A DNA stretch of 64,000 nt from a virus: positions 1 through 64,000 of the IMG/VR virus record IMGVR_UViG_3300009155_000050; one strand, given 5' to 3'. Each line of letters starts with the position of its first letter. Positions within the stretch are counted from its first letter, which is position 1. The translations under genes and the position numbers were made by a program. Positions 23,723-62,918 of the stretch are shown piece after piece. The notes under the pieces were generated by a model. It was not told the origin of the DNA, did not search any database, and saw only the letters and a list, made by a program, of their open reading frames with translations.

Positions 23723-24154
23723 CTACATTTCCAAATATTCGTCGAATTGGTTAGGATCTGAATAAACTTGATTTATGCTCACGTCGTGTGGTTTTAACGT
23801 TATGTTGGGAATTTTGCTCCAAGTATATGCACTGCCTCTCTCATAGACATGTGGAGGGATATTGATCTCGTAAACGCCTTCTGCGAACTTGGCAATCACA
23901 TAGACGTGGACATCGCCGATCATTTGCGAGTAAGCCACCGCCTCGATATTATGAGCATTTAGCACCGCAGCCATTGCGTCGGCTATGTCGTGGCAGATAC
24001 CACCTTCTCCGTATTCATGATCGTAGCCATCTTCGTTTTGCTCCCACTGGTCGTACACGGCTTGCGCGGCGCTTAGTAGTGAAGACATCACAGTATTAAC
24101 GCTACTAATAGAAGGGAGTGATTCCGTCTGTTCAATTATAAGTTTAAGTTTCAT
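23723..24154 (-). CDS. Cys/His peptidase-like protein with capsid-targeting-like N-terminus, 143 aa
   Basis: The best start is ATG 24154, giving MKLKLIIEQ, the shared MKLxxIxE peptide. A ten-residue upstream extension has no ribosome site. The catalytic-like pattern GGICHDIADAMAAVL (C54) followed by VHVYVIA (H83) and YEINIPP (N98) resembles transglutaminase/papain-fold proteins. The third position is Asn where Asp is usual, so activity is uncertain. Inference: a packaged head protein cut after IIE and possibly delivered to the host. Confidence 0.6.
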   Translation of the reverse strand: MKLKLIIEQTESLPSISSVNTVMSSLLSAAQAVYDQWEQNEDGYDHEYGEGGICHDIADAMAAVLNAHNIEAVAYSQMIGDVHVYVIAKFAEGVYEINIPPHVYERGSAYTWSKIPNITLKPHDVSINQVYSDPNQFDEYLEM

Positions 24155-24196
24155 AAGATAGATTTGGCGGCAGGTGTGGTCCATTTAAACAATTGG

Positions 24197-24733
24197 CTAA
24201 TTGAATTGATATAGTCTTAAATGGTACACATCTTTAGACTCGTGGATGACATGAATGCAATTGATCTTATCGGAGATTAATTTGGCCACTAATTTACTAG
24301 AATCTTCGAAAACTAGTGGCTTATTATAATGTTTAATAATGTTCATCTTCATTAAAGCATCACTATGACCTAGCCCTATGAATTCAGTGTCTTTTCCTAG
24401 ACGCTTTCGAATGTCGTCTGCCGCTTTATGCGGTCTGGCACTTAGGATGAGCTTGTTGTTGATTTGCTCGTAGAAGTCAAGTACGTCTTGTATTGGTGTT
24501 GCCTTGGTGAAGTCCACCGATCTAAAGTTAATAAAACTATTGTCATCAAATGACTCATCGGGTGCCATGACATAATTTGCGAATTGCGGCGATGTCACTT
24601 CGCAATAGGTCTTATCACCCAACCGCCGAGTGCCACGTGGACTACTGATCAGTACTGTTTCGACGGTCTTGAATAACGTATAATCGAAATCGAAGATATA
24701 TTTATCTGCGTCTGGTAATTTAAGCTTTGCCAT
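24197..24733 (-). CDS. HAD-superfamily phosphatase, 178 aa
   Basis: ATG 24733. HAD motifs are in order: DFDYT (15-19, D15 nucleophile), LSARP with S98 (motif II), KMNIIKHYNK (lysine 129 or 134, motif III) and VFEDSS (E143/D144, motif IV). HAD enzymes transfer phosphate from small molecules, proteins or nucleic acid ends. The size and LSARP motif are similar to the 3'-phosphatase domain of phage polynucleotide kinases, but there is no kinase domain, so the substrate is unknown. Confidence 0.8.
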   Translation of the reverse strand: MAKLKLPDADKYIFDFDYTLFKTVETVLISSPRGTRRLGDKTYCEVTSPQFANYVMAPDESFDDNSFINFRSVDFTKATPIQDVLDFYEQINNKLILSARPHKAADDIRKRLGKDTEFIGLGHSDALMKMNIIKHYNKPLVFEDSSKLVAKLISDKINCIHVIHESKDVYHLRLYQFN

Positions 24734-24762
24734 GATAGCGACCTGGCTGGAATGACTACTAC

Positions 24763-25120
24763 CTACAGGCGACAGTTATTGCACTTGATCAAGCCCTCGG
24801 TGGAACTGTGCGCTCCCAGAAACCTCCGTAAAACCTCCCGGACAAAAGGATCCGTGCAGATGGCCTTGTACGCCACAATGTCGGCCCTCTCCCTTTCTAA
24901 GGCTGTCAATGTGCGCTCTGCCAAGGGAAAGGTGAGCCGTGCCGCTCCCTCCCTTGGGTGGGTTGATTGTTTCCCTTGGCCCCAAGGTCTCGCCACGAAC
25001 GCCTTGCCCGGGCTCGACACATTTGGGCATGGGTGGGTATTTGCGGGGCGGCTGGGGCGGCTTGGTGTTATAATACACAACCAATAGGTCTATCAGCCAT
25101 CTCCAAAAAGTTATTATCAT
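24763..25120 (-). CDS. GC-rich locus with two competing minus-strand frames
   Basis: ATG 25120 follows AGAGGGG and opens a membrane-like N-terminus (MIITFWRWLIDLLVVYYN). That frame continues to 24776 but becomes low-complexity Gly/Pro. From about 24990 the neighbouring frame (+1) is much more protein-like: ARLTFPLAERTLTALERERA, VREVLRRFLGAH and a terminal CNNCRL, stopping at 24763. Either one gene has a frameshift (programmed or mutational) or two genes overlap. The segment is clearly more GC-rich than its surroundings. Confidence 0.4.
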
Positions 25121-25306
25121 CGTTTCCCCTCTCTAAAAGTAAAGTTCTTGAGGTGTTGGCTCACGAAACCTTTCGATCAGCAGGCCATCCACTGACACAT
25201 TTTATTAATACTTCTTCTTCATTACCGGACACTGGTCTAATGCACCAGTTGCAAAATGATCGTTCGCTGCATCTTTAAACCTGATGGGGCTAATAATAGG
25301 GACCAA

Positions 25307-26107
25307 TTAAACGGACGTGCTTTTGCTTTTAGCCCTGAATAATGATTTTAAAGCTGCCTTGTCAGTAGACGTAATCCAAGCGCCGACCTGGTTAGATTTT
25401 ATAGCATCATATTTTCTTTGATTATCGCAGTATGCTTCGGCGTAACCCAATAAAGTAACGCTGCCATCTTCGATAGGATGATACTTGACTAAGCAATACC
25501 CTTCAAATGCTTGATATATCATCCCTCTGACCTTAGTTTGAATTTTAGGGTTAGTATCGTATATGACTTGTCCCAGATTACTTGAATGACGAGACATCAA
25601 TCGATCAAATTGCTGTATTGACTCCGGCGTAAACAGATCGGTGGCGTTAAGCCGCTCCAATTGCGAACTGATACTGTAATCTGTGCCCAGAATTTTCTTT
25701 GCGACGCCCAGAGGAGTTATCAAGTATTTGTCAAGGCCAGTCACTTTGAGTTTCAATATCATGGATCCATATGTTCTGTCCATCATAGACTCGAATTGAT
25801 CATCGATGAATAAGGTAGCGTATAACCCTGCACCAAAACCTGTGCCGCCGCCTGTATCCCATGATTTCGATAATATAGCTTCGAGATTTTCAGGTTTGGT
25901 TCTATGGTAAACTACTGCTGTCCTATTAGGATAAATGTCTTCATTTAATGAATTCTTAGACTTTCGTCCCCAATTAATAAACTTATCTCGATCCTTAGGA
26001 TGCACAAGGAGAGACATCCTCCCTTTTTTCTGCTTGGTAATACAATTGGGATAATTACCGGGAGCGATTTCCCAGTGACCTGCTTCAAGAATGTATTGTA
26101 GCTTCAT
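25307..26107 (-). CDS. Candidate ADP-ribosyltransferase with capsid-targeting-like N-terminus, 266 aa
   Basis: ATG 26107 opens MKLQYILEAGHW, the shared MKLxxILE peptide. Residues 64-70 (AVVYHRT) and 88-98 (GTGFGAGLYAT), with strands after them (YGSMILKLKVTG), resemble the first two conserved elements of PARP-like ADP-ribosyltransferases. A later FEGYCLVKY could supply the glutamate. T4 Alt is an ADP-ribosyltransferase carried in the head behind just such a peptide and modifies host RNA polymerase. I infer an Alt-like role; the catalytic assignment is by eye. Confidence 0.55.
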   Translation of the reverse strand: MKLQYILEAGHWEIAPGNYPNCITKQKKGRMSLLVHPKDRDKFINWGRKSKNSLNEDIYPNRTAVVYHRTKPENLEAILSKSWDTGGGTGFGAGLYATLFIDDQFESMMDRTYGSMILKLKVTGLDKYLITPLGVAKKILGTDYSISSQLERLNATDLFTPESIQQFDRLMSRHSSNLGQVIYDTNPKIQTKVRGMIYQAFEGYCLVKYHPIEDGSVTLLGYAEAYCDNQRKYDAIKSNQVGAWITSTDKAALKSLFRAKSKSTSV

Positions 26108-26199
26108 ACAGTAGATTTTTCTTGTGGCTTAACAATGTCACAGGTCACTGTAAGGAACTGACCCACATGGAAGTGTTAACTTTAACAAGGGTATGAGAA

Positions 26200-26487: not shown

Positions 26488-26498
26488 GATATATAAGT

Positions 26499-26529: not shown

Positions 26530-26546
26530 TATAATTGGAGCTATTA

Positions 26547-29494: not shown

Positions 29495-29878
29495 ATGCGC
29501 GAGATTCCTATGAACTGCCAAAGAGCGCCACAATTTGACGCTGTAATAGGTAATATCAATTACTTTGGTTTTGATTTTATCTTCCCTGACGGTGAACTCG
29601 CCAGCTGCAACAAGCTATGCAGTTTAGGAGTGAAGGTGTTCTTTGGCAGCACTATACCAGAATATGCTAGTCTGAGACTTTATTTGAGCGATGCCTCTCG
29701 GAGACCGTCAGTAGAAGGCGTCAGAATGCGTAGGTTTAAAAAGGTGTATGACAATGGGGTCATCCATCTCCAATTGATAGATGGCAGCAGAACAACAATG
29801 TCGTTCGAACCAGGCGATAGATTATACGATTGGCTCGGAGCTGAGGGGCCTTGCTTCTTCGGTGCAAGAGTCCTATAA
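29495..29878 (+). CDS. Hypothetical protein, 127 aa
   Basis: ATG 29495 has AGAGGAAG just upstream. The product begins MREIPMNCQRAPQFDAVI. It has a beta-rich middle (INYFGFDFIFPDGELA ... VKVFFGSTIPEYASLRLYL) and ends GPCFFGARVL. No family is recognised. Its 3' end overlaps the sigma-like gene on the other strand by 6 nt. Confidence 0.7.
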   Translation: MREIPMNCQRAPQFDAVIGNINYFGFDFIFPDGELASCNKLCSLGVKVFFGSTIPEYASLRLYLSDASRRPSVEGVRMRRFKKVYDNGVIHLQLIDGSRTTMSFEPGDRLYDWLGAEGPCFFGARVL

Positions 29879-30442
29879 TTCAGATAAAAATTCACCTAGA
29901 TCCTTAACATAATATAAGAATTCCTTAAGCAGTGCTAAATTCGCTTTCATTAACTGTCTAACTCTGTTTTTGGTAATCCCATACGCCTTACCGATTTCTT
30001 CAGTCGTCATTCCATTCACGTAGTGATCTATTATCATTTGACGTTGGGCTTTTGGCTGGTCAAACAGCAAGACTTCTACAACGTGCTCTATTCCACCGTT
30101 TGTTTTAAGGAAGTTGTGCCATGCGGTGTTTAAAGTGTTCATTTGTGTAGCCTCCAGTTTATCAACTAGATCCTTGCCCCTAAGTCTCAGGGCTACGTTC
30201 TGATTTTCCTTAAGAATAAATTGATAGATTATACGATATAAGCTGATAAAAAAATAATAGCGCCAATGAGTCTCGTATACTTTGCACTTGTGGTAGCAAG
30301 TCCATGCAAAGCCCCAAAAGTCGCATGGCCTATACGATACCTTAAGGGCTTTATTTATGTAATGTACCAACTTTACTAAGATCGATTCAATATAGTTGCA
30401 TTCTACTGAAGGAATGTCAGGAGAGCTAAATCTATTTCCCAT
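29873..30442 (-). CDS. Sigma-70-like factor, 189 aa
   Basis: ATG 30442. The C-terminal part (residues about 140-175) reads QRQMIIDHYVNGMTTEEIG, then KAYGITKNRVRQLMKANL, a sigma region 4 helix-turn-helix. Upstream, DFWGFAWTCYHKC and WRYYFFISLYRIIYQFI look like a diverged region 2. Such small phage sigma factors direct host RNA polymerase to middle or late promoters. It stands alone, convergent with one gene and divergent from the sugar cassette. Confidence 0.7.
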   Translation of the reverse strand: MGNRFSSPDIPSVECNYIESILVKLVHYINKALKVSYRPCDFWGFAWTCYHKCKVYETHWRYYFFISLYRIIYQFILKENQNVALRLRGKDLVDKLEATQMNTLNTAWHNFLKTNGGIEHVVEVLLFDQPKAQRQMIIDHYVNGMTTEEIGKAYGITKNRVRQLMKANLALLKEFLYYVKDLGEFLSEL

Positions 30443-30492: not shown

Positions 30493-31197
30493 ATGAGTGC
30501 TTTAAACCAATATCTGGCTCAACTAGATGAGCCTATAGCATTTAACGTGAGGGATGACTCTAAGCTAGACCATTCATTAAACTATACACCAGCCAGATTT
30601 ATCGAATACATGGATGCGGTCCGAACCGGAGCGACTTATTATTACGGCGAAACTGACGCATGGCTCTATCAAGCACTAAGGCAGTACCCTATAGTTGGCA
30701 TGGATGTTCTACTAATAGGTTCAGCTAACCCATGGTATGAGGCTATCTGCCTTGTATTTGGAGCAGCTACTGTCACCGTCTCAGAATATGGCGATCGGCC
30801 ATTTGTCAATGAGGCCATTAAGTATGTGAAGCCCGAAAGCCTAAACCGACGCTTCGACGCTTGCCTTAATATCTCTTCCGTGGAACATGATGGCCTTGGA
30901 AGATATGGCGATCCTATTGATGCTAACGGCGATTTAAAGACTATGACAAAATTGGTAGACCTAGTTAGGCCCAATGGTTTGCATTTTTTAGCTGTTCCAG
31001 TCGGTAGGGATCTTACAGTTTTCAACGTGCACCGCATCTACGGAAAAAGGCTGATAAAATTATGTGAACGGTGGAATATTCTGGATCAATTCGGCCTTAC
31101 GGCGAATTGGTGGGAGCAGACGATAAATACGGTGGAGATGACGCCATATCAACCTGTGCTGGTACTGATGAACGGTAAACACCATGAAAGAATTTAG
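30493..31197 (+). CDS. DUF268 family protein, 234 aa
   Basis: ATG 30493 follows AAAGG. The family pattern is clear: VLLIGSANPWYEAICLVFGA, then ISSVEHDGLGRYGDPIDANG, then GLHFLAVPVGRDLTVFNVHR and IYGKR. DUF268 is a SAM-methyltransferase-like fold found in polysaccharide gene clusters. The nucleotide-binding-like GSANPW loop is present, but a standard GxGxG is not. First gene of the glycan cassette; its stop overlaps the next start by 14 nt. Confidence 0.8.
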   Translation: MSALNQYLAQLDEPIAFNVRDDSKLDHSLNYTPARFIEYMDAVRTGATYYYGETDAWLYQALRQYPIVGMDVLLIGSANPWYEAICLVFGAATVTVSEYGDRPFVNEAIKYVKPESLNRRFDACLNISSVEHDGLGRYGDPIDANGDLKTMTKLVDLVRPNGLHFLAVPVGRDLTVFNVHRIYGKRLIKLCERWNILDQFGLTANWWEQTINTVEMTPYQPVLVLMNGKHHERI

Positions 31198-31954
31198 GTC
31201 AGATTTGACCCATTTGCATACCAAGATGCTAAATGGTGAAAACTTTGCATTCACGCGCTACTCCGATGGCGAAATGTTTATCATGCAAGGAAAGCGTTTA
31301 AGGCTTAGCGCAGATGAGTCGATAGTTGGCGATCAGAGGTATCATGCTGCCTGGGCTCCAGAGGATCACAAAGACGTAGATCCGGTGGCTCACCGACAGA
31401 TAGTCGACAAGTTGATAGCTTCATTTAAGTACGATGCGCCAGAGTACTATAAAGGTATATCATGCAAATGTTGCGTGGGCCACGAGAACAGGATGTTCTT
31501 CGATACCTTGTGTGCAGAGACTAAATATTGGACTTGGGCTAATCTTCTTGTAAATGGCAATTATCCGTATTTTTTAGACCACATATTGCCGTTGATCCTT
31601 GCACATCCCACGTTAGTTTTAATAGCTAACGGCAGCGCCAATCTGCATCCTACAGTTAAGCCTGTGAAATGGTTTAAAGTAGGCACTAACTGTATAGTGA
31701 ATGATCAGCCACTTATTGAGGAAATGACCCAATGGGTGCAGGAGTCTCAAATAACGAATCATCTTTTCATCTTCTCAGCGTCTAGCTTGACTCAAATGCT
31801 CATTCATAGACTACATCAAGTTAATCCACAGAACACTTACATTAATGTTGGCACTACGATGAATCATCTACTTGGACTTACATGCAATAGGGGCTACCTC
31901 CATATACATAAAGGTGAAACGCACGATGATATGAGGAAGCTATGCATATGGTAA
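31184..31954 (+). CDS. GT-D-like (DUF1792-type) protein, 256 aa
   Basis: ATG 31184 overlaps the end of the DUF268 gene. The N-terminal FAFTRYSDGEMFIMQGKRL is the RYxDGE element of DUF1792/GT-D glycosyltransferases, which use Asp and Glu rather than DxD for metal and donor binding. The rest is less conserved (HPTLVLIANGSANLHPT). Predicted sugar transfer to a cell-surface or virion glycan. Ends in overlap with the GNAT gene. Confidence 0.65.
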   Translation: MKEFRSDLTHLHTKMLNGENFAFTRYSDGEMFIMQGKRLRLSADESIVGDQRYHAAWAPEDHKDVDPVAHRQIVDKLIASFKYDAPEYYKGISCKCCVGHENRMFFDTLCAETKYWTWANLLVNGNYPYFLDHILPLILAHPTLVLIANGSANLHPTVKPVKWFKVGTNCIVNDQPLIEEMTQWVQESQITNHLFIFSASSLTQMLIHRLHQVNPQNTYINVGTTMNHLLGLTCNRGYLHIHKGETHDDMRKLCIW

Positions 31955-32352
31955 AGTATAAACTGGTGAATTGCTCTCTTGATTATTGGGGTTTCGTCCG
32001 AAGCTTAAGGAACGATCCACGCAATGCCCAAGGGTTTATACAGCAAGTCCAAATTACTCCAGACCAGCAGACAGCATATATGATGGATCATCATCAAGAT
32101 TACAAGATTTGTGTCACAGATGCTGATGAGCCTGTTGGTTTCGTGGGGGACATAGATGGCGACCTGAGGGTTTGCGTTGTGCACGAGCACAAGAACAAAG
32201 GCATAGCGTCGTTCATGATCAACGAATACCTAAAAAATCGCAAAGGACTTTACGCAAAGGTGAAGGTTGATAACGAGGCTAGTCTTCAGCTGTTCCTAAA
32301 GGCTGGCTTTAAACAGAAGTATTACATCCTGGAACGTGATGATGCCCGCTAA
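31942..32352 (+). CDS. GNAT N-acetyltransferase, 136 aa
   Basis: ATG 31942 or 31948. The acetyl-CoA binding motif A is visible as LRVCVVHEHKNKGIASFMIN, followed by KVDNEASLQLFLKAGF (motif B). GNATs in such clusters often acetylate the amino group of an amino sugar made by the neighbouring aminotransferase. The residues before motif A (VGFVGDIDGDLRV) form the usual beta strands. Overlaps both neighbours. Confidence 0.85.
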   Translation: MHMVKYKLVNCSLDYWGFVRSLRNDPRNAQGFIQQVQITPDQQTAYMMDHHQDYKICVTDADEPVGFVGDIDGDLRVCVVHEHKNKGIASFMINEYLKNRKGLYAKVKVDNEASLQLFLKAGFKQKYYILERDDAR

Positions 32353-32980
32353 TCTATCGAAGCATAACCCTTTTAAAATCGTTGAGATGTTTGAAGATGA
32401 AGTGGCACATTATACCGGAGCACCTTATGCAGTCTCCGTAGATTCATGTACAAATGCGATATTCCTTTGCTGCAAGTACTTGAATGTGCAAACTGTCACC
32501 ATTCCAGCAAAGACTTACCTCAGCGTGCCGATGTCGATAATCCACGCCGGTGGTGAAGTAGTCTTTGATAAGAGTGGGAGCGTAAACCACTGGACTGGCC
32601 AATACCAGCTTAAACCGTATCCTATCCACGACAGTGCTAAACGTTTCACCTCGAAAATGTATAATGCAGGCCAGTTTTACTGCTTGAGTTTTCATATTAA
32701 GAAGCAGTTGAATATTGGCAAAGGCGGCATGATATTGACTGATAATATAGATGCCGTTAATTGGCTTAAAAAAGCGCGTTATGAAGGACGGTCCGAGAAA
32801 TTCTACAAGGAAGATGATATCACGTTCTGTGGCTGGAACATGTACATGGCGCCTTCTGTCGCAGCCCGGGGCTTAGAGCTGATGCACAATTATCCCGAGC
32901 ATGTTCCTGATAGCCAAGAGATCAATGGCTATCGAGATTTAACTGAGTTCAGTGTTTTTAAAAATATGAGGACCATATGA
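32342..32980 (+). CDS. DegT/DnrJ-type PLP aminotransferase, short form, 212 aa
   Basis: ATG 32342 is the last of GTG-ATG-ATG. The sugar aminotransferase pattern is present: EVAHYTGAPYAVSVDSCTNA, TVTIPAKTYLSVP, HDSAKRF and SFHIKKQLNIGKGG, in which the second lysine of HIKK is the PLP-binding position. Full-length family members are about 370 residues, and the C-terminal half is missing here. The product may be a minimal enzyme or may need a partner. A likely substrate is a keto-sugar nucleotide, with the GNAT acting next. Confidence 0.8.
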   Translation: MPANLSKHNPFKIVEMFEDEVAHYTGAPYAVSVDSCTNAIFLCCKYLNVQTVTIPAKTYLSVPMSIIHAGGEVVFDKSGSVNHWTGQYQLKPYPIHDSAKRFTSKMYNAGQFYCLSFHIKKQLNIGKGGMILTDNIDAVNWLKKARYEGRSEKFYKEDDITFCGWNMYMAPSVAARGLELMHNYPEHVPDSQEINGYRDLTEFSVFKNMRTI

Positions 32981-33834
32981 TAACGTTTTCTAGAATCGGC
33001 ACTATGGGTCGATTTGGTAACCAGTTGTTCCAGTACGCTGCACTCAAAAGCTTAGCCCTGACGAATAACTACGAAATGTGTTTACCGCCCACCGACACCA
33101 AAATATGGCACAATCAAGAATGCCTACTGAAGCATCTAAACATCCCAGAAGAATTTAAAGAAGTCAAAACCGGTTGCACCGTAGAAGAAGCTAGCACATA
33201 TACTGACGGATTTTTTCAAACACCTGACAATGTCGATATCGCTGGATATTTTCAAGATGTACGCTACTTCGAACAGCATCTGCCTCAGATAAGGAAGTGT
33301 GTAGGCCTTAACGCTAACTCTAACACGTTCGCCAGCGCACATCATAAGTTTGAAGCAATAGCGCCGTCACGCAAGCACAGTAAAGTCGTTAGCCTGCATT
33401 TACGCCTGGGCGATAACATATTCATGAGCCCACAGAAAGATACGTGCGAAGCTGTGATGATGGGCGATCCATTGAAAAATTATCTAGACAGAGCCTTCGA
33501 ATACTTCGGTAATGCCGATTATTTCGTCTTCGCTGGCGGGTCAAGAGATGTTAAGGAAGGCCAACATGACCGTGATTTAACTGCAGCAAAACAGATCCTA
33601 GCAGAATATCGTTATAATTTCATCTTTTCCAGCGGAAATAACACACTTGAAGATTTTAAACTAATGGAATTGTGTGATGGCAGCATCTTATCGCCATTCA
33701 CCACTTTTGGTCTATGGGTTGGTTATTTAGCCAAACCCGTAAAATCAATTGTAGCGCCAAAAGATTACTTCATGGGTACTGAGCCAGATTTATTGCATCG
33801 TAGGCTTTATTTAGATAATTGGATCAAAATGTGA
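32977..33834 (+). CDS. GT11 fucosyltransferase-like protein, 285 aa
   Basis: ATG 32977 overlaps the previous stop (ATGA). The start TMGRFGNQLFQYAALKSLA is the hallmark of glycosyltransferase family 11 (alpha-1,2-fucosyltransferases and relatives). SLHLRLGDN supplies the HxRxGD donor-binding motif, and ILSPFTTFGLWVGYL is the third motif. It transfers L-fucose, or another GDP-sugar, to a glycan. It belongs to the tightly overlapping cassette. Confidence 0.85.
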   Translation: MITFSRIGTMGRFGNQLFQYAALKSLALTNNYEMCLPPTDTKIWHNQECLLKHLNIPEEFKEVKTGCTVEEASTYTDGFFQTPDNVDIAGYFQDVRYFEQHLPQIRKCVGLNANSNTFASAHHKFEAIAPSRKHSKVVSLHLRLGDNIFMSPQKDTCEAVMMGDPLKNYLDRAFEYFGNADYFVFAGGSRDVKEGQHDRDLTAAKQILAEYRYNFIFSSGNNTLEDFKLMELCDGSILSPFTTFGLWVGYLAKPVKSIVAPKDYFMGTEPDLLHRRLYLDNWIKM

Positions 33835-34427
33835 TAATAGTAAATCTAGGCGGCTACGGCGGCTGCATGTTAACCACTGTAATTAGGAAGTTTAACCAAC
33901 CAGCGTACCCGTTTGACTGGAATATCACTTCTCAATCCTTCGTCACCAAATGTATTGCGTCTGGCGGCAAGCATTTCTTCGATTTTAATATGCGTTACCT
34001 GCGTGACGGGTTTCTATTGTCTCCAGACAATGATGCCTTCTTGTTCCATGAATATGCACGCGTTGAACCATGGTGGGTAGAGAACGACGAGGTCAGAACC
34101 ACGTATCAGAGAAGATTACACCGTTTGCTCAGCGTATTCTACAGCACAGATGAAATATTGTTCTGTAGACACGCTATAGACGAAGATCCATATAACGATT
34201 ATGCCAAATCAAGCTGGTCAGTTTTACCATTTGTTGTAACATACGATCGAGTGAAATTATGGGAATATTTCATACACAGTCGGCCTAATAGTAAGCTATT
34301 ACTATTAACTAACAATCCGCAGATGGCGAGCAGACACCAAGATGTATATATTGAACACATAACAGATGTGCGTGGCGATCGCTGGACCGACCAGGTCCAT
34401 TCGGCCATACAGCGTCTTGTGAGCTAG
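33831..34427 (+). CDS. DUF1796-like papain-type protein, 198 aa, GTG start
   Basis: GTG 33831 overlaps the previous TGA. The family elements NLGGYGGCMLTTVI (Cys in a family-typical loop), PAYPFDWNITS and later HFFDFNMRY and RHAIDED are seen in DUF1796, predicted cysteine peptidases often found with glycosyltransferases. Whether it cleaves anything is unproven. Its position inside the sugar cassette suggests a role in surface-glycan assembly. Confidence 0.7.
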   Translation: MIIVNLGGYGGCMLTTVIRKFNQPAYPFDWNITSQSFVTKCIASGGKHFFDFNMRYLRDGFLLSPDNDAFLFHEYARVEPWWVENDEVRTTYQRRLHRLLSVFYSTDEILFCRHAIDEDPYNDYAKSSWSVLPFVVTYDRVKLWEYFIHSRPNSKLLLLTNNPQMASRHQDVYIEHITDVRGDRWTDQVHSAIQRLVS

Positions 34428-34438
34428 TGAGGCTGGCT

Positions 34439-35509
34439 ATGAAGATCGGCATCATAGGTGTTGGGAAATTAGGCTTATGTCTTGCCCTTAATCTTGACAA
34501 AGCGGGCCACCAAATCTATGCATGTGACACAGATGCTAAATTGGTCGAGGCGATCAGGACCAAAGCACTACACACTGCGGAGCCAATGGTAGAGAGTTAC
34601 CTTGCCGATTCAAGGTTGATCATCGGAGATGACCTCTCTCACATCGCAGAGGCAGATGTCATCTTCATAGTCCTGCCCACACCCAGCTTGCCTGATGGGT
34701 CTTACGATCACACTTTGATCACGCAGGCGCTGCATGATATCCGAGCCTTAGGGCTACGTGATAAAGTAATAGCCATTAATTCTACTGTTATGCCAGGCTA
34801 TTGCGCTACTGTGCTAAATCTAGTGGATCATAACCATCTCATTTATAACCCTGAATTCATCGCTCAGGGGTCGATCATTCGAGACCAGCAGAACCAAGAC
34901 GTGGTGTTGATCGGGGGCACCGACACAAGGTCGATGTCCATAATTGCAGAATTACATCGCAGCATTTGTCTCAATAAGCCGTCCGTAAAGATGATGTCGT
35001 TTGCCGAGGCTGAAATTACCAAATTAGCAACCAATGTTTTCCTGACGATGAAGATAGCGTATGCTAATAAAGTAGGCGATATGGTATCTAGATATAAAGG
35101 CAACTCTGATGTGGTACTAAATGCTATAGGCGACGACAGAAGAATAAATCACCATTGTCTTAAGTACGGATTTGGCTATGGTGGACCGTGCTTACCTCGC
35201 GACAATAAAGCTTATATTAAAGCTTCTGAGGATGTGAAAATCTCGGCTGAACTAAACGTAGCCATAGATCAAGCAAACGACTCGCACTTGATGTTTATGG
35301 TTGACGAGGCTAAGGACCAAACGTCCATTGTGATGGACCGTGTGACCTTTAAAGATGAATCAACTATATTAGATAATTCGCAGCGTCTCGCTTTTGCTAA
35401 CGCAATCGCCGCTAAGGGCACGAAGGTCACTATAGTAGAACGTCAGCAGGTCATAGATCAATTGAGAAAGATGTATGGCTGGAAGTTTGAATACGCTTTA
35501 GAGGAATAA
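34439..35509 (+). CDS. UDP-glucose/GDP-mannose dehydrogenase family, 356 aa
   Basis: ATG 34439 follows GAGG at 6 nt. The Rossmann motif MKIGIIGVGKLGLCLALNLD opens the protein. VLPTPS, NSTVMPG, YNPEFIAQGS and the catalytic Cys in GYGGPCLPRDN follow. The family oxidises a UDP-sugar C6 alcohol to the acid in two NAD-dependent steps. The C-terminal NAD domain is shorter than in bacterial enzymes (about 430 aa). With WecB next, the pair can make UDP-N-acetylmannosaminuronate from UDP-GlcNAc. Confidence 0.85.
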   Translation: MKIGIIGVGKLGLCLALNLDKAGHQIYACDTDAKLVEAIRTKALHTAEPMVESYLADSRLIIGDDLSHIAEADVIFIVLPTPSLPDGSYDHTLITQALHDIRALGLRDKVIAINSTVMPGYCATVLNLVDHNHLIYNPEFIAQGSIIRDQQNQDVVLIGGTDTRSMSIIAELHRSICLNKPSVKMMSFAEAEITKLATNVFLTMKIAYANKVGDMVSRYKGNSDVVLNAIGDDRRINHHCLKYGFGYGGPCLPRDNKAYIKASEDVKISAELNVAIDQANDSHLMFMVDEAKDQTSIVMDRVTFKDESTILDNSQRLAFANAIAAKGTKVTIVERQQVIDQLRKMYGWKFEYALEE

Positions 35510-35510
35510 C

Positions 35511-37739: not shown

Positions 37740-37783
37740 AATCAAATCCTGCAGTAGCGTGTGCTTTATTTATTGATCGACTA

Positions 37784-39190
37784 TTAAAACGGTAGCGCCT
37801 CTTTGGCTGTTAGCCAGTGTTGGTAATCATTTGCATATTTCGACGCCATAATTATAGGTTCTGCTTCTGGCCACCTTGCGTTAATAACACGCCTAGCATA
37901 ATTATATGCTTTGTAAGGATCGTTGATCACAGCTTGCTCAAATTCAGGCAGCGACTTTGGGCCATTTGGAAGGCGATTGAGTACCAACCTTGTGTATTCC
38001 ATCATGGCAAACAGCGGCTGATCCATTTTTGCGATACGATGCTCTAGAGCTGGCCAGCGCCCTTCTAATACTTTACCAGCATAGAGTATGGCATGTATTA
38101 CCTCACCTTCGTTAAGCAGATATGGTTCGGCTTCAAGCCATCTGTCACCCCCGAAGAAGGCAATGGCGTAGCTAACGGCAGTAGCGCTTTTGGCAATGAT
38201 AGATTCAGCTTCGAGCCATCGACCACCGATGACTCTATCAGCGTAAGCATATGCCGTTTTAGGATCATGTATCAAATACGGCTCTGCCGCTGGCCAACGG
38301 CCTACTCTGTAGTGTTTTGCATAATCGATGAGATGGTAAGCTGCCTCTTCGTCCTCGCCATTTTCGCATTGTTGTAATAGATACTGCTCAATCACTTCAG
38401 ATGGTTGAATGAAAGTCGGTAAGTTTCCACTCAGGTAACGAGCAAGAATTTCAGGCACTTCAGACAGCATTGAGGTATCGTATTCGTAAACTGCAGCGGC
38501 GAATTTTAGAGTATCGTTGATAGGTCCCACATAGTCTAACATTATGAGCGCTGACGCTTTGTCTGGTATGCTATATTCGGGAAGATTGTGAGTGTCCTTA
38601 AATTCACTAGAGTCGAATTGATATAATGGCTTTTTATCTTTGTAAAGCACATACTGTGTGTCTGTGCTTAAATGTTCAGCTGCCTTATTAACTCTACCGC
38701 CTCTTCTCGTGCACCAACGAGTACCCACTCCCAATCGCTCTAAGCTGTCGATTGCCTCTGGGCTCGTACCTTCGATTTTAAAGAGAACATACTGACCATC
38801 ATCATATATGACCTTTGCGCCTGGGTACTCCGTGCCCATGTGCGTCACGCCTGAACCGCGCACTGATGATGCTTTAATGGCCTTATGTTCTCGGATCTTT
38901 TCTAAAGCATCATTAAAATAAGCTAAATTTTTACCATTTAAGTCAGCATCGATATTTAGATTACGCAGCACTTGCTTGTTTCTATCCCATTCGACGATTG
39001 AATCTCGCAATTGCGGTGTTAGAAATTGGTCTGTGTTCGCTTGTTTAAATCTTTGCACCAACCATTCATAATAAAAGCCACCGGTCGGATCCGTGTCTAC
39101 GATTTTTTGCACTGCTGGGTGATCTTTACCGAGCTGTTTTTCGAGCCAAGTATGATTAAGCTTCGCCTCTAAAATAAGTGATAACTTCAT
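37784..39190 (-). CDS. WCTR-domain / alpha-repeat protein with capsid-targeting-like start, copy A, 468 aa
   Basis: ATG 39190 opens MKLSLILEAKLN. The next about 195 residues are a globular domain shared with the two genes upstream. It contains GTRWCTR (146-152), TQYVLYKDKKPLYQF and a DLNGKDLAYF-like segment. I know WCTR/WCTA domains from uncharacterised phage proteins. The C-terminal half is a run of about 26-residue two-helix units with WPAAEPYLIHDPKTAYAYA-type text (4-6 units, degenerate). Inference: packaged head protein cleaved after ILE. Confidence 0.75.
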   Translation of the reverse strand: MKLSLILEAKLNHTWLEKQLGKDHPAVQKIVDTDPTGGFYYEWLVQRFKQANTDQFLTPQLRDSIVEWDRNKQVLRNLNIDADLNGKNLAYFNDALEKIREHKAIKASSVRGSGVTHMGTEYPGAKVIYDDGQYVLFKIEGTSPEAIDSLERLGVGTRWCTRRGGRVNKAAEHLSTDTQYVLYKDKKPLYQFDSSEFKDTHNLPEYSIPDKASALIMLDYVGPINDTLKFAAAVYEYDTSMLSEVPEILARYLSGNLPTFIQPSEVIEQYLLQQCENGEDEEAAYHLIDYAKHYRVGRWPAAEPYLIHDPKTAYAYADRVIGGRWLEAESIIAKSATAVSYAIAFFGGDRWLEAEPYLLNEGEVIHAILYAGKVLEGRWPALEHRIAKMDQPLFAMMEYTRLVLNRLPNGPKSLPEFEQAVINDPYKAYNYARRVINARWPEAEPIIMASKYANDYQHWLTAKEALPF

Positions 39191-39311: not shown

Positions 39312-40775
39312 TTATATATTTCGTGCATCAACCCAACTCGACGAGTCATCATAGGCGTCCGCACCTCTGCTGATATCCTTATTAACCCAATCAAAATAAA
39401 GTTTAGCGGCCTCGGGATTCTTCTTGATGTACGGTTCGGCCTCTGGCCATCGCTCCCTTTTTAGAAACCTAGCGTAAGCATATGCTGTATATGGTTCAGT
39501 CATTATGTATGGTTCCGCCTCTGGCCATTCACCATTTATGAAAGCATAAGCATACTTGTATGCTACCTGAGGATCTCGCATTATGATGGGTTCAGCTGCT
39601 GGCCAGCGGTCTTCCCTCACGTAAGCAGCATAATTGTAGGCCACCTGAGGATCCTGCATGATATACTTTTCTGCGTCTGGCCATTCACCTTTTATGATTC
39701 TTTGGGCGTATTCGAACGCCATGCGAGCGTCCTTTTCGATATACGGCTCGGCTTCAAGAAATCGTTCGCCTTTATTAAATAATTTTCTAGCGTATAGTAT
39801 AGCATATCCGGGATCTTGCTTGATATATTTTTCAGCTTCCGGCCATCGACCCTTTAGATGTATAGCATAAACCACGGCAGACTGAGGGTCTGTCATGATA
39901 TACGGTTCGGCGTCAGGCCACGTTTCCCCTAAGACGTTTAATGCGTATTCTCGGGCCCACTTTGGTGATGTTTTAATGATTGGCTCAGCTTCTGGCCATC
40001 GCTGTTTCATGGCCACAGCATAGCGACACAGGTCTTCGGGTGATGCATCGGCGAAGTTGTTTGATTCAGCTATCCTTTGTCCTATCTCTAGCGTCTTTAA
40101 TTGATCATTAATTGGGCCGACCACTTTAAGTATTAATCGTAACACATCAGCAGGTGGCTTGTATTCTTCATCACGCACATCTTTAAAGTCTTGTCTACTG
40201 AATTGACAGATAGGCTCACCATTTTTATACAACACATATTGCGTATCAGATAAGTATTCTTCAGCGGCACCCTCCACATCGCCGCCTAGCCTGGTGCACC
40301 ATCCGGTTCCGATTCCGAGTTTCTGCAAGCTGTCTATCGATTCTTCGTTCTTGCCTTCGACTTTAAACATGATATAATTGCCGTCATTATAAATAGCTTC
40401 GGCCCCTGGATAATTATTGAATAAATAATAGGCCCCACTATTTTTAGTGTGTGAGGCTTTAATGGCTTTATACTGCCGCATTTTTGCTAGCACGTCATAG
40501 AAGTATGCGAGATCTTTACCGTTCAAGTCTGAGCTTAATCCTGCACTTTTGATAGCTCTTGCGTTATTGGCCCATTCTCCGATGTCGGCTTTTAATTCGG
40601 GCGTGAGAAAATCATCGGATTGCGACTTTTGATAAAGCGCAGTTAACCATTTGTAATAAGATCCGCCAGTTGGGTCGGTGTCTACGATTTTTTGAACAGC
40701 TGGATTATCTATACCGAGCTGTTTTTCGAGCCAGGGGCGATTAAGTTTAGCCTCTAGTATGAGTGATAGTTTCAT
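39312..40775 (-). CDS. WCTR-domain / alpha-repeat protein with capsid-targeting-like start, copy B, 487 aa
   Basis: ATG 40775 opens MKLSLILEAKLNRPWLEKQL, nearly identical to copy C. The WCTR domain (GTGWCTRLGG) is followed by eight clear tandem units of about 26 residues, consensus RWPEAEPYIMxDPxxAYxYA. These should form an alpha-solenoid like TPR or Sel1 arrays, usually protein-binding. The DNA of the repeats is similar enough for recombination to change copy number. Function is unknown. Confidence 0.8.
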   Translation of the reverse strand: MKLSLILEAKLNRPWLEKQLGIDNPAVQKIVDTDPTGGSYYKWLTALYQKSQSDDFLTPELKADIGEWANNARAIKSAGLSSDLNGKDLAYFYDVLAKMRQYKAIKASHTKNSGAYYLFNNYPGAEAIYNDGNYIMFKVEGKNEESIDSLQKLGIGTGWCTRLGGDVEGAAEEYLSDTQYVLYKNGEPICQFSRQDFKDVRDEEYKPPADVLRLILKVVGPINDQLKTLEIGQRIAESNNFADASPEDLCRYAVAMKQRWPEAEPIIKTSPKWAREYALNVLGETWPDAEPYIMTDPQSAVVYAIHLKGRWPEAEKYIKQDPGYAILYARKLFNKGERFLEAEPYIEKDARMAFEYAQRIIKGEWPDAEKYIMQDPQVAYNYAAYVREDRWPAAEPIIMRDPQVAYKYAYAFINGEWPEAEPYIMTEPYTAYAYARFLKRERWPEAEPYIKKNPEAAKLYFDWVNKDISRGADAYDDSSSWVDARNI

Positions 40776-40788: not shown

Positions 40789-42465
40789 CTACTTTGATTC
40801 GCTGTACAGAGCCCATGGCTTTTGGCCGGGCATTCCTGTACGTCCTGACGGTTGGTTAGTTAAGCCTTGATGACCCATGGCATAATTGAATTCTTTAAAA
40901 TACGCTTCAATGTCTGGATGGTTAGGCCGACCAAGCGAGATTATATTTTCAGCAGCAGGCCACCGTCGCTTTAATACCTCAAGTGCGTACCTCGCTGCGA
41001 AAACAGGTTCCGGATACGGATACTGTCCATCACGCGGCTTAGTTGCTAAAGAGGACTTCATAGCCGCTATGGCTTTATCTTCGAAATCTGGAATCGGTTT
41101 ACCATCCGTCACATGGGCTACGTAATCCTTGACATGGAAGATTGAGCACTCTGCCGCCAGCCAATTCTCTACGGCTATGGAACGTTTGTGTACGTGTATA
41201 GCATACCGTAAACCCTCTAAGCTAGCACTGTTAAGGAGTCTTTTCTCACCTTCCGGCCATTCTCCAACTTTGAGGTCCCATAGGTAATTTAATATCAGAT
41301 TTAGATTGCCATCTTCTACAAAATCCACGGGTACCAAATTAACGGCGGCTAACAGCCATTTTTCCAATTCAGGCGAACGTTCTATTAACACGTTGGGTTG
41401 AGTGCGGCGTTGCACAAAATAACGTGTATATGCAGCCAAATTCTCCTTCAGCAGTTCTTCACCCTCCGGCCATTCCTCAAATTTGCAGCATGATAACAGG
41501 TAGTTAGTCAAGTGGTCAGTAAAGTAGCGCTGTGTATGGGATCTAAACTTATTGTTATTATTAATGAACCATTCCTCGATTTCCGGCACGCGCCTTTTTA
41601 GAATTTGGGTGGCGTACAAGATGTATTCGTGCATGTCTGACTTGATAAACGCTTCCAACGCTGGAATGCGTTGAAAACCGGTAACTCCATCGAAACGGTA
41701 TACACCTTGCTTGTACTTATTGACCATGTCTTGCGTCATATTGACAGATTTCGGATCGCCATAGGCTATCTGAGCCACCATCAATGCTTCATTACACGCA
41801 TATCCCATGGCATCAAGGATCTTCGAAGCGGCATCACGCTCAGGGATAACATTTTCATTTCTAGCATTCATGAAGTCTTTATCATCGAATTGATATAGAG
41901 GTTTTTTATCCCTATATAGAACATACTGCGTGCGTGATTTTAGATATCGCTGCGCAGCCCCACTGATATTACTGCCTTTTCTAGTACACCAAGACGTGCC
42001 CATCCCAAGTCGCTCAAGACTATCAATCGAAGCTGCGTCTTTGCCCGCTATCTCGAACAGAATATACTGTCCGTCATTCAGTAATATTTTAGCGCCTGGA
42101 TAATCTTTACTGAGGTGATAGACACCGCTGCCTAAGCCTGTAGACGCTCTCAAAGCCCTATCGTACCTTAATGATTCTAGATTGTCCGCCAAGTACGTCA
42201 AGTCCTTGCCGTTTAAGTCACTGCTGATTTCAAGATTTTTCAATGCTTGTTTATTGCGATCCCATTCGTCGATGTCTGCGCGTAATTCCCGAGTTAAGAA
42301 GTCATCTGATCCGCGCTTCTTGTACAAAGATGCCAACCATTGGTAATATGAACCTTCGGTTGGATCAGTGTTCACGATTTTTTGAACAGCTGGATTATCT
42401 TTACCGAGCTGTTTTTCGAGCCAAGGGCGGTTAAGCTTCGCCTCTAGAATAAGTGCAAGTTTCAT
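40789..42465 (-). CDS. WCTR-domain protein with capsid-targeting-like start, copy C, 558 aa
   Basis: ATG 42465 opens MKLALILEAKLNRPW. The first 210 residues align with copies A and B (GTSWCTRKGSN, TQYVLYRDKKPLYQF). The C-terminal 340 residues carry only scattered, decayed units (EEWPEGEELLKENLAAYTRY and EVLKRRWPAAENII), so this copy has diverged most. It is 13 nt upstream of copy B, and the three form one transcript. Confidence 0.75.
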   Translation of the reverse strand: MKLALILEAKLNRPWLEKQLGKDNPAVQKIVNTDPTEGSYYQWLASLYKKRGSDDFLTRELRADIDEWDRNKQALKNLEISSDLNGKDLTYLADNLESLRYDRALRASTGLGSGVYHLSKDYPGAKILLNDGQYILFEIAGKDAASIDSLERLGMGTSWCTRKGSNISGAAQRYLKSRTQYVLYRDKKPLYQFDDKDFMNARNENVIPERDAASKILDAMGYACNEALMVAQIAYGDPKSVNMTQDMVNKYKQGVYRFDGVTGFQRIPALEAFIKSDMHEYILYATQILKRRVPEIEEWFINNNNKFRSHTQRYFTDHLTNYLLSCCKFEEWPEGEELLKENLAAYTRYFVQRRTQPNVLIERSPELEKWLLAAVNLVPVDFVEDGNLNLILNYLWDLKVGEWPEGEKRLLNSASLEGLRYAIHVHKRSIAVENWLAAECSIFHVKDYVAHVTDGKPIPDFEDKAIAAMKSSLATKPRDGQYPYPEPVFAARYALEVLKRRWPAAENIISLGRPNHPDIEAYFKEFNYAMGHQGLTNQPSGRTGMPGQKPWALYSESK

Positions 42466-43335: not shown

Positions 43336-43855
43336 CGGCGCTCCTCGAAAATTGGACAAGTTGCATCAAATTGGCTGATTTACCTTCGATAATCAACACT
43401 CCGTCATGATCAGTTATGTCTTCGCCTAAGCTTTTATAGGCTAGACGGAAAAATTCAGCTATTTTGGCTATTAATTCGGTCAATGGTGTACTCAGCAGTA
43501 AGACAGCCCTTGCGTCTCGCTTGAATCTGTTAGCGAACGCTGAATCGGCACTGTCGACGCTCCAAAATTGCTTCTTGAAGTCTGGTTTTAGTAGAAGATG
43601 CTTGCTTTTATAGCCTACTTTGCAATTGTTTCTATGAATATTAATATTTAAATTAGGGTATTCCTTCCTAAATTGCATAGCTAACTCGCAATTTAGTTTA
43701 TGGTGCAGTGTCTTGAGCTTATGTTCTAGATTCATCAATTTGTAGCGCGTTTTTTCTAATTCTTTCGAAGTGTGGATGCAGTCTTGCAGGACGCTATTGC
43801 GTTCAACTTGCTTCGGGTCGACCATCAGGAGGTCAAGTGTGTCTGAGAATGTCAT
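43322..43855 (-). CDS. Hypothetical helical protein, 177 aa
   Basis: ATG 43855 overlaps the previous TGA (ATGA), so it is preferred to the in-frame ATG at 43891. It begins MTFSDTLDLLMVDPKQVE. A long coiled helix follows (KELEKTRYKLMNLEHKLKTLHHKLNCE), then a basic region and a small C-terminal domain. A scaffold- or chaperone-like role is possible given the position, but there is no direct evidence. Confidence 0.7.
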   Translation of the reverse strand: MTFSDTLDLLMVDPKQVERNSVLQDCIHTSKELEKTRYKLMNLEHKLKTLHHKLNCELAMQFRKEYPNLNINIHRNNCKVGYKSKHLLLKPDFKKQFWSVDSADSAFANRFKRDARAVLLLSTPLTELIAKIAEFFRLAYKSLGEDITDHDGVLIIEGKSANLMQLVQFSRSADVIS

Positions 43856-44115
43856 TTTACCGTTGGATCCTTGAAGGTTGGGATCATCCATGAGAAGGTA
43901 TCCATCGCTTTTTCTGTATCATCAATGCTGGTAGTGAGTAGATCAGTCTCTTCTGCACCCGGTGATGATAGGTTAACGTCTGTGGGTTCGTTATCGGGCG
44001 TGTGTAATTCTGGATCCATGATATCTTGTGCCATCTTGGCCCCAGCCCATGAATTTACTCCAGCCGGTTGGACTGAATTGAAGTTACTGTCTTCTATTAT
44101 CCGATTTAGTTTCAT
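43852..44115 (-). CDS. Small protein with capsid-targeting-like start, 87 aa
   Basis: ATG 44115 opens MKLNRIIEDSNF, another MKLxxIxE start. The rest is acidic and low-complexity (DPELHTPDNEPTDVNLSSPG), like phage internal head proteins or scaffold pieces. It is first in the leftward operon 44115-37784 and divergent from the gene at 44161. Predicted cleavage is after IIE. Confidence 0.65.
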   Translation of the reverse strand: MKLNRIIEDSNFNSVQPAGVNSWAGAKMAQDIMDPELHTPDNEPTDVNLSSPGAEETDLLTTSIDDTEKAMDTFSWMIPTFKDPTVK

Positions 44116-44160
44116 AATTTATATTTCGTTAGTACATACATTTAGAAAAGGAGGTGGCTT

Positions 44161-60855: not shown

Positions 60856-60896
60856 CTGCTTCTCCAAAGATACCTAAAATAGATTTAAGGTGACAC

Positions 60897-61391
60897 ATGG
60901 CTTGGTGGCAAAATTCCGGGAATCTATCTTACAAGGACGGCTATGATAATATTTATACCGTTAGCTGGATCAAAAAATCCGCCACTAACCAAGGGCAAAT
61001 GATATTCGACTTCACCACCAAAATACTTGGCCCAATCTGGGGTCAGACTCCGCAAATAAAAATCGCCGCTAATCGCACGCAATTAATCGAGTGCGAACAA
61101 ACTACCATAGAACAAACGATACAAGTCTATGGAGAGTCATTGCCGAGTGATTACAGCCTGACTACAGTGTCCGCTGTGACAGAAATCGTGTACAAGTATC
61201 TCGGTGTTAATTGTGTAGCAAATATCAAGAACCCATTTAAATACGGATTAAATAATGCTATAATAGACAATGACGCAATAGGCGTAGATGGCCCCGGTTG
61301 CTGGAGTGACCCAAATGACCCCAACAGTGTAATATGGAACGATGTTGGTTCAGGCGATTTGTTCTGGGTAGATGTGTGGGGCCCATCGTAG
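60897..61391 (+). CDS. Hypothetical virion-region protein, 164 aa
   Basis: ATG 60897 follows AAGGTG. It begins MAWWQNSGNLSYKDGYDN and is beta-rich with Asn/Thr/Trp (VSWIKKSATNQGQMIFDF). The C-terminal part is Gly/Asp-rich (GPGCWSDPNDPNSVIW). A small tail or decoration protein is likely. It is the first of two plus genes between large minus ones. Confidence 0.65.
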   Translation: MAWWQNSGNLSYKDGYDNIYTVSWIKKSATNQGQMIFDFTTKILGPIWGQTPQIKIAANRTQLIECEQTTIEQTIQVYGESLPSDYSLTTVSAVTEIVYKYLGVNCVANIKNPFKYGLNNAIIDNDAIGVDGPGCWSDPNDPNSVIWNDVGSGDLFWVDVWGPS

Positions 61392-61394
61392 CAG

Positions 61395-61514
61395 ATGAGT
61401 AATGTGGATCTAAGCAACGTGTACAATGGCAGTCCGTTTGCAGTTTTAGGCGCTGTGACACAACCATTAGACTACGTTTATAATGGTCAGCCGTTCACTA
61501 AGACTAGCAGCTAA
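61395..61514 (+). CDS. Tiny virion-type protein, 39 aa
   Basis: ATG 61395, 3 nt after the previous stop, encodes MSNVDLSNVYNGSPFAVLG, then QPLDYVYNGQPFTKTSS. The two VYNGxPF segments are an internal repeat; similar YxGQPF peptides occur in phage virion proteins. No strong ribosome site; translation may be coupled. Confidence 0.6.
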   Translation: MSNVDLSNVYNGSPFAVLGAVTQPLDYVYNGQPFTKTSS

Positions 61515-61534
61515 ATTAAATGTGCGATAACCAA

Positions 61535-62236
61535 TCAATATGCTAGATTATTTTTCTTCCTGTAATCAATAATAAGAGAGACACACCATGCAGCATTGCG
61601 CGATAAATTCTCTTCTCGGAAAACAAAGGGTCGCCCATCCACTCTAGTGTGGAACTGCCCACCATGACCGCCAAGCCATGAGCCAACGTACATCTCTTGG
61701 TCAAGCTTAGGAAATTCACCGCTTTTATTAGTGCCGTACAAATATGCTTTATCTGTGCCTTTATCAATTAACAACACAGAATCTTGACAATATTCTTTGC
61801 CTAACTGTATAATCAGATTTTTGAAATCTGGGTCATCTTTAAGATTTACCACGAACATGCTATCTTCTCTAACATCGACTGCTTTGGATGTACCGAAGTT
61901 TTCGGTAAATGATCCATCAACCTCAGTGACGCCACATCCGTGTTGCCGCAAAACTGCCTTAAGATCTCTATTATTGACTTTATTGATTTCGCTATAAAGT
62001 CCGCCATAATTTTTGATAAATTCATACCTATCGTTTATAGCTATTTCTCCGCTTTTATTATGCATAATCGTATCGATATTGCGCTGCTTAAGTTTCTCAA
62101 CAGCTGTAACGTCAGCTGCGCAAGCAGTTAAATCGCACGGGTTTTGTCTGTGTGCTGTTATTATTGCGCAATCATGCTGTGTCATGCCGCTGTGTGTCCT
62201 CGATAAACCACTTTCACAAATGTCTTTAAGTCTCAT
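61535..62236 (-). CDS. Phage protein with capsid-targeting-like start, 233 aa
   Basis: ATG 62236 gives MRLKDICESGLS, a variant of the shared peptide (cleavage would follow ICE). A longer frame from 62257 lacks a ribosome site. Residues about 15-35 (MTQHDCAIITAHRQNP) and the later RNRDLKAVL-like, GSFTENFGT and GKEYCQDSVLLIDKG segments remind me of uncharacterised phage proteins of similar length. It ends with a Gly/His-rich loop (GSWLGGHGGQFH). Function unknown; possible packaged protein. Confidence 0.65.
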   Translation of the reverse strand: MRLKDICESGLSRTHSGMTQHDCAIITAHRQNPCDLTACAADVTAVEKLKQRNIDTIMHNKSGEIAINDRYEFIKNYGGLYSEINKVNNRDLKAVLRQHGCGVTEVDGSFTENFGTSKAVDVREDSMFVVNLKDDPDFKNLIIQLGKEYCQDSVLLIDKGTDKAYLYGTNKSGEFPKLDQEMYVGSWLGGHGGQFHTRVDGRPFVFREENLSRNAAWCVSLIIDYRKKNNLAY

Positions 62237-62288
62237 GATACACCTATGTGGCACCATTAAATGTTAGCGGAAAGGTCATACTGTATAT

Positions 62289-62918
62289 TCACTCGCTGTC
62301 GTCCGCAAGTCGCCTAGCAAGATAAGCTACCTCATAGTCTATCGTACCTTTTAGATGATTAATAACACTATCAGTAGTTGAATAGTCTAAGTATGCAAGT
62401 TCAATGATAATATTCCAAGCTTCTGGATTAGGATATAAAATCAACGTTAGATATCTCTTACTAAAGCGGTGTTTCCATCCCGTAGGCAATAAAGACTTGA
62501 TAATTGGCTTAATTAATCTCTTTGCGATATAAAATTCTGTTTCATTCATGGCTTTAAGTAAATCGTCATTTCCTTGCTTATCAATAAACCATTAATACAT
62601 AGCAATAGCCGTATGATTGCTCTGCCGGATTAACTTCTTGCCGTACTGGTCAGATATTCATCGAGTTCTTGTTTCGCCTTCTTCATCTAAGAATGTCCAT
62701 GGTATTTGTGGGTACTCTGCTACGTAACTCGCTATAGCTTCAGCAACATGTGGCTTTTGTGCTAATCTATCTTTAGCTATAGCGCATCACCACAAATAAT
62801 ATTCACCCCCAGTAGGATCAACCGCTATGATTCTGTCGATTATCGGATTGCCTTTACCCGATTGCTTGTCTAGCCATAATTTATTAAGTCTGGCCTCTAA
62901 AATAATAGACAGTTTCAT
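62289..62918 (-). pseudogene. Inactivated copy of the MKLSxILEA family, three in-frame stops
   Basis: ATG 62918 opens MKLSIILEARLNKLWLDKQS and continues IAVDPTGGEYYLW, clearly the start of the WCTR family at 37784-42465. The frame then meets TGA (62787-62789), another TGA and a TAA, yet stays in register to the stop at 62289. The last 86 codons (from 62549) are open and protein-like. No frameshift has occurred, so decay is recent or the text is under unusual constraint. It lacks the WCTR core, so an internal deletion is likely too. Confidence 0.7.

Follow-up and report, generated by a model that had tools for sequence, protein, structure and literature searches.

The window analysed here is the first 64 kb of the 99,898-base virus record IMGVR_UViG_3300009155_000050. 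It carries eight loci that open with nearly the same eight-residue peptide, M-K-L-x-x-[I/L]-x-E, hereafter called the tag (Table 1). A sequence-only reading had placed these N-termini at 24154, 26107, 39190, 40775, 42465, 44115, 62236 and 62918, all on the minus strand, and every one of them was found at that position and on that strand. The same reading had described the bodies behind the tag as unrelated apart from three paralogues; five independent bodies do stand (24154, 26107, the paralogues, 44115 and 62236), but the pseudogene at 62918 proved to belong with the three paralogues, whose family thus has four copies. We consider it highly likely that the tag is a capsid-targeting sequence (CTS) of a giant T4-like phage clade, whose tagged cargo is packaged into the head, cut and injected as effectors.

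Table 1. Features of the window that bear on the tag; a slash marks the predicted cut behind the tag.
Feature	Position	Strand	N-terminus or box	Length (aa)	Remarks
Tagged gene	23723..24154	-	MKLKLIIE/Q...	143	no Pfam match
Tag, predicted capsid-targeting	24131..24154	-	MKLKLIIE		
Box, -12 to -5 of tagged ATG	24159..24166	-	CAAATCTA		
Tagged gene	25307..26107	-	MKLQYILE/A...	266	no Pfam match
Box, -12 of tagged ATG	26112..26119	-	AAAATCTA		
Tagged paralogue 1	37784..39190	-	MKLSLILE/A...	468	WCTR domain and RWPEAEP helical repeats
Tagged paralogue 2	39312..40775	-	MKLSLILE/A...	487	
Tagged paralogue 3	40789..42465	-	MKLALILE/A...	558	
Tagged gene	43852..44115	-	MKLNRIIE/D...	87	no homologue found
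Box, -12 of tagged ATG	44120..44127	-	GAAATATA		
Tagged S-adenosylmethionine (SAM) lyase	61535..62236	-	MRLKDICE/SGLSR...	233	PF23780
Paralogue-family pseudogene	62289..62918	-	MKLSIILE/A...		in-frame stops
gp23-type major capsid protein	63053..64000	-			continues to record 64627

Two tagged starts, 24154 and 62236, have another ATG upstream in the same open reading frame (ORF), at 24184 and 62257 respectively. The tagged start is preferred at 24154 because of the box 12 nt in front of it, and at 62236 because of the alignment with homologues; the 62236 peptide, which deviates at residue 2, is missed by the DNA pattern described below and has its support from homologues only. The body of the 24154 protein has a homologue in a relative (L082:17880), which is likewise tagged (MKLRVLYE/N...). 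By eye only, a GGIC...HVYV pattern in this protein resembles a cysteine-protease/transglutaminase fold. The 26107 protein is a fusion of a small N-terminal GHW...RLSFLVHP domain with a separate C-terminal part, and the GHW domain stands alone as tagged proteins of 58-62 aa in three relatives (L118, L131, L195). A likeness of its C-terminal part to ADP-ribosyltransferases (ARTs) was seen by eye only, without a Pfam match; the AlphaFold model (pLDDT 34) was unusable for a comparison with the ART fold, and because of this failure the label was dropped and is not claimed. The paralogues, three tandem copies, combine the WCTR domain, which has no name in use, with 26-residue C-terminal RWPEAEP repeats; the predicted structure (pLDDT 71, pTM 0.48) shows helical repeats and gave no useful fold match. 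The pseudogene of this family (MKLSIILEARLNKLWLDKQSGKGNP...) is identical in a second assembly (G001). This decayed copy adjoins the SAM lyase gene. Sequence searches of the PDB found nothing, P0001, P0002 and P0004 had no tblastn relatives among 50,697 phage records, and alignment-driven scans of IMG/VR recovered nothing beyond this phage itself and several members of its clade.

Written as a DNA pattern, ATGAARYTNNNNNNNATNNTNGAR, the strict form of the tag (MK[L/F]xxI[hydrophobic]E) matched seven times in the 64 kb against a shuffle mean of 0.01, and all seven matches are reported loci, one being the pseudogene; a looser DNA pattern gave seven matches in the window against 0.25 expected. Further ORFs of this kind, which the sequence-only reading had thought worth looking for, are present in G001 and in relatives. 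The remaining 36 kb of the record hold no other clear MKLxxIxE gene, and G001 (115.6 kb, 99.97% identical) has one extra tagged start, MKLSVISE at 114496. A search with the capsid protein recovered 80 IMG/VR relatives, on contigs of up to 408 kb. In 21 records from this set, the loose tag pattern matched 82 times against 13 matches for the reversed pattern, the count of 82 being somewhat redundant as G004/G005 and G020/G021 have matches at identical sequences. Matches of the form MKVYLFPE or MKIYLFPE, a single family with starts deep inside longer ORFs, were rejected as tags. When 83 tagged proteins were clustered without their first ten residues, they fell into 64 unrelated body clusters (54 singletons), collected from 23 relatives that are mostly giant T4-like phages. 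Among 893 nonredundant ORFs of loci anchored on the major capsid protein (MCP), 16 start with MK[LI]xx[IL]xE, where 0.14-0.17 were expected and 500 shuffles gave at most 3; of the 16, 11 lie beyond the window. The glutamate excess in this ORF test peaks at position 8.

Across 56 unrelated representatives, information is found at residues 2-9 and essentially none at residues 10-30. Residue 6 is [IL] in 54 of the 56 and residue 8 is glutamate, partly fixed by the search pattern. Residue 9 lies outside that pattern, so its bias is not forced by the search; 46 representatives (82%) have a small residue there (S, A, G, D, N or T), against a background of 38%. This profile is consistent with a short signal followed by a protease site and not with a shared domain. 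That the peptide is instead the leftover of one ancestral N-terminal domain, without a targeting role, does hold for the three paralogues and their pseudogene, for the GHW-domain group and for a few other pairs. Between clusters, however, conservation drops to about 0 bits from residue 10, and the same body bears unrelated leaders in other phages. The tag is thus not the remnant of one shared domain; the sequence-only reading had named descent from such a domain in every case as a refutation of its proposal. The body clustering, the SAM-lyase junctions and the residue profile largely refute this explanation, which we regard as extremely improbable.

The sequence-only reading had named a gp23-like capsid and expected a gp21-type prohead protease, and both were found. 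An S77 homologue (Peptidase_S77 PF03420, E=1.7e-19; phrog_207, 1.6e-41) lies outside the window at record 69996-70745, and the same record encodes a gp20-type portal, a gp23-type MCP and a large terminase. The maturation site of the MCP reads VILE/NQTTT (VILE being residues 76-79). In the aligned MCPs of relatives, the place that corresponds to the T4 gp23 cut, just upstream of the conserved ...VGVQPM, has a hydrophobic residue (usually I/L), then L/F/M, then E (ILE, IFE, LLE, IME); the glutamate is followed by an acidic residue or an amide and by a run of TTT. The [I/L]xE of the tag is also the capsid's own cut site, which counts in favour of cleavage of the tag by the prohead protease. Alternatively, the peptide could direct proteins to some other structure of the phage, such as a replication compartment or the membrane-bound portal site, and its match to a gp21 site could be coincidental. 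However, the small residue 9 would be expected of a protease P1' site, the capsid is cut at the same [IL]xE, and homologous bodies of other T4-like phages begin right after [ILF]xE; we therefore think such a different address improbable.

The last of these points, the leader/body junction of the SAM lyases, is the best single test of the tag reading. The 62236 protein (P0007) matches the SAM lyase family PF23780 with 44.3 bits (cut-off 28, E=2.1e-11) and has no PDB sequence match at a useful E-value. Homologues occur in five other phage lineages, represented by Microcystis phage Mel-JY01, Alishewanella phage Slickus01, Campylobacter phage CPt10, cyanophage S-CREM2 and the Lak phages. Their bodies open with SSLSR (or SGLSR, KSLNR, SSINR; consensus S-[SG]-[LI]-[SN]-R) and are preceded by unrelated leaders, some 8 to 40 residues long, that all end in [I/L/F]xE at the junction: MRLKDICE/SGLSR in the window, and elsewhere MQFKQYILGE/SSLSR, ...INALSE/SSLSR, ...NFNE/SSLSR, ...ESLEE/SSLSR, ...ELNE/KSLNR and ...TINE/SSINR. 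Lineage-specific leaders joined to the same cargo at what looks like a prohead-protease site are hard to explain except by targeting and cleavage. In CsCl-purified virions of S-CREM2, mass spectrometry detected ORF6 (19 unique peptides, 26.3% coverage), and its authors proposed that ORF6 shields incoming DNA from restriction (PMC10665884). Together, the junction in the homologues and this published virion detection favour packaging. In Lak phages of Prevotella (L214, L215, 540 kb), the SAM-lyase leaders end in LNE or INE at the same junction, which suggests that these megaphages may also package a SAM lyase.

A late-promoter-like [CT]AAAN[AT]T[AT] box is found upstream of 18 of 57 tagged genes and, at any upstream position, of 19 of 693 other genes (p=3e-12). 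In tagged genes it lies nearly always exactly 12 nt before the ATG, and the window boxes of 24154, 26107 and 44115 are variants of this consensus. Shine-Dalgarno-like sites precede 21% of tagged and 55% of other genes. When IMG/VR was scanned for box plus tag, 53 stretches were obtained against 27 with a scrambled box, and ORFs of at least 45 codons were opened by about 26 of the former and 2 of the latter. In T4 late promoters, TATAAATA lies between about -13 and -6 relative to the start of the transcript. With a box at -12 of the ATG and the T4 promoter spacing, transcripts would start at the ATG, which suggests that tagged genes may be expressed as leaderless late messages; the box would support late expression and is not proof of it. 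Sigma-70-like proteins are encoded at L003:11716-12657 (record 91716-92657) and at window 29873-30442, and the first of these, with regions 2 and 4 (region 2 under the cut-off), could be a late sigma factor. Given the strong association between box and tag, the conserved start could also be read as a late promoter or ribosome site that reaches into the first codons. However, it is the amino acids that are conserved, while their codons vary, and this conservation is spaced to the [I/L]xE and reaches the small P1' residue; many tagged genes have no box, just as some genes with a box have no tag. We give this explanation very little credence.

In the window, the SAM lyase is the sole tagged protein with a recognised function. 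Among the tagged proteins of relatives, Pfam identified GNAT acetyltransferases (L012, L150), a NUDIX hydrolase that starts at residue 11 (L197, 1.3e-18) and a phosphoribosyltransferase (PRTase) domain (L113), as well as a polyvalent-protein ART starting at residue 13 (L138, under the curated cut-off), a DEDDh-type exonuclease (L107, under the cut-off) and a twin-arginine translocation (Tat) signal (L166, just under the cut-off). A Tat motif lies a few residues behind the cut in three tagged proteins with unrelated bodies: E/AEFTRRNFLKSMAGAAAALSG (L166:2770-3624, minus strand), E/SGMTRRNFLANTG (L043:4817-5644, plus strand) and E/VDSRRDFLKKSG (L021:12784-12987, plus strand; also L017); the DNA examined contains no other convincing Tat-type N-termini. 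Once injected and cleaved, such cargo might reach the envelope of the host by export. Even if the tag is a prohead targeting and cleavage signal, most tagged proteins could be structural or core parts of the head and not injected effectors. A recurrent tagged family of about 80 aa (L129, L139, L162, L194), common to relatives and a candidate conserved head component, would fit such a role, as would the many bodies without any enzyme domain and the influence of T4 IPIII on head morphogenesis (PMC9026906). Yet 64 unrelated and patchily distributed bodies are unlike conserved structural parts, and several of them are enzymes (GNAT, NUDIX, ART, PRTase, SAM lyase); we consider a mainly structural role unlikely.

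Core binding, cleavage, packaging, injection and effector roles are what we infer for this phage, in a scenario in which (i) tagged proteins would be made late in infection; (ii) the first residues of the tag would bind the prohead core, whereby the protein would be built into the head; (iii) the gp21-type protease would cut after the glutamate of [I/L]-x-E and remove the 8-residue tag; (iv) the mature protein would stay among the DNA and, once ejected into the next host, act there early as an effector, such as a SAM lyase starving SAM-dependent restriction or BREX. Any gene could be recruited by gaining the tag, since this is short, sits at the N-terminus and would be cut off again. Very probably, the tag is a CTS that the prohead protease removes, as happens in the T4 internal proteins, and the tagged proteins are probably packed in the head and delivered with the DNA into the next bacterium. 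Directly established are the tag with its statistics, the gene for the protease, a capsid cut site that matches, the unrelatedness of the bodies and the junction of leader and body. Several points weigh against packaged and injected effectors: most cargo bodies are without known function; K2, E8 and the hydrophobic residues 3 and 6 are partly set by the pattern, although the ORF test is independent of that; the tag differs from that of T4 in sequence and in length (8 vs 10 residues); and for S-CREM2 ORF6 the authors name co-purification as an alternative, with no N-terminal peptide data (PMC10665884).

A wider generalisation, which we offer tentatively as a possibility, is that head targeting in the T4 superfamily consists of lineage-specific tag dialects, in which effector bodies move between phages and take on the local tag, the genome of any T4-like phage reveals its head-delivered arsenal, and, in this clade, some injected cargo is re-exported in folded form by Tat to the host envelope. 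In the cultured phage Slickus01 (OQ508957.1), positions 87862-97396 encode a cluster of five proteins that start with MKI[DE]xLYES or MKFDDLLE, a putative related tag dialect, and four of the five appear ART-like by eye (YHGS/FHAT). Virion proteomics is available for few giant phages, hence the contents that they inject at the first moment are mostly unknown. An 8-residue tag would be a short, removable means of loading proteins into their heads, and it allows the cargo to be listed from sequence, with dozens of candidate anti-defence or takeover proteins.

Among the other genes of the phage, those at window 30493-37745 form a mostly plus-strand run that is nucleotide-sugar/glycosyltransferase-like by eye and includes sugar dehydrogenase-like, UDP-GlcNAc epimerase-like and aminotransferase-like genes, perhaps a phage-carried surface-sugar modification. 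At L003:2693-7084 (record 82693-87084), a 1463-aa ORF appears by eye to encode a ribonucleotide reductase with an intein (CFDGKTEIITRDG...).

The CTS of the T4 internal proteins IPI, IPII and IPIII was reportedly described by Mullaney and Black in 1996. It is ten residues long, and T4 gp21 cuts after L/I-x-E (PMC9026906); IpI-III, which inhibit GmrSD restriction enzymes, have only the N-terminal leader in common (PMC12373910). Black's group proposed the CTS as an evolutionary mechanism by which T4-like phages could acquire a variety of head proteins (PMC9026906), and the same SAM-lyase cargo with different leaders in each lineage makes this proposal testable. The sequence-only reading had assigned MKTYQEFIAE to Alt and IPI-III; IpII and IpIII do both begin MKTYQEFIAE/A, but Alt does not and is cut after ITE-6 (PMC5694885). 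Alt, a packaged and injected ART, resembles the tagged proteins in that gp21 trims it at [I/L]xE, as is predicted for them; it differs in its leader and in being trimmed at the C-terminus too, and none of the window proteins is a confirmed ART. T4 genes do not contain the MKLxx pattern. The tag and the T4 peptide follow a like logic with unlike sequence and length, and eight residues cannot show homology. Common to both are a short N-terminal peptide on unrelated proteins, [I/L]xE followed by a small residue, a gp21-type protease, a T4-like capsid and cargo thought to disarm host defences. In contrast to T4, there are many more bodies here, with enzyme cargo, in a giant-phage clade, and the box lies at -12, whereas in T4 it is further upstream and accompanied by a Shine-Dalgarno site.

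T3 makes its SAM lyase after DNA entry. P0007 passes the cut-off of the family of the T3 and Svi3-3 enzymes (PF23780; PMC7877911), with a similar predicted depletion of SAM against restriction or BREX, but unlike them bears a putative head-packaging leader. The S-CREM2 SAM hydrolase ORF6 (PMC10665884), detected in virions, has a homologous body and a leader that ends in LEE before SSLSR; it differs in a longer, unrelated leader, its Synechococcus host and a much longer C-terminal part. The N-terminus of P1 DarB (PMC9024508) and polyvalent proteins (PMC5512222) offer parallels in an N-terminal signal sufficient for head packaging and in head-delivered anti-restriction enzymes, but these systems are not T4-like, and the P1 Dar proteins are without a common consensus tag. 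The ejection proteins of phiKZ and SPN3US (PMC5694885) likewise belong to giant phages with a gp21-related protease (gp175/gp245) that cuts after x-x-E, but their propeptides are mostly longer than 100 residues and carry an S/A-x-E motif. No description of the MKLxx[IL]xE tag was found in the literature searched, which comprised open-licence papers only. The principle is known from T4; what appears to be new is an 8-residue dialect across a giant-phage clade with a large, enzyme-rich repertoire, and new as well are the exchange of leaders and bodies in the SAM lyases and the Tat signals behind the cut.

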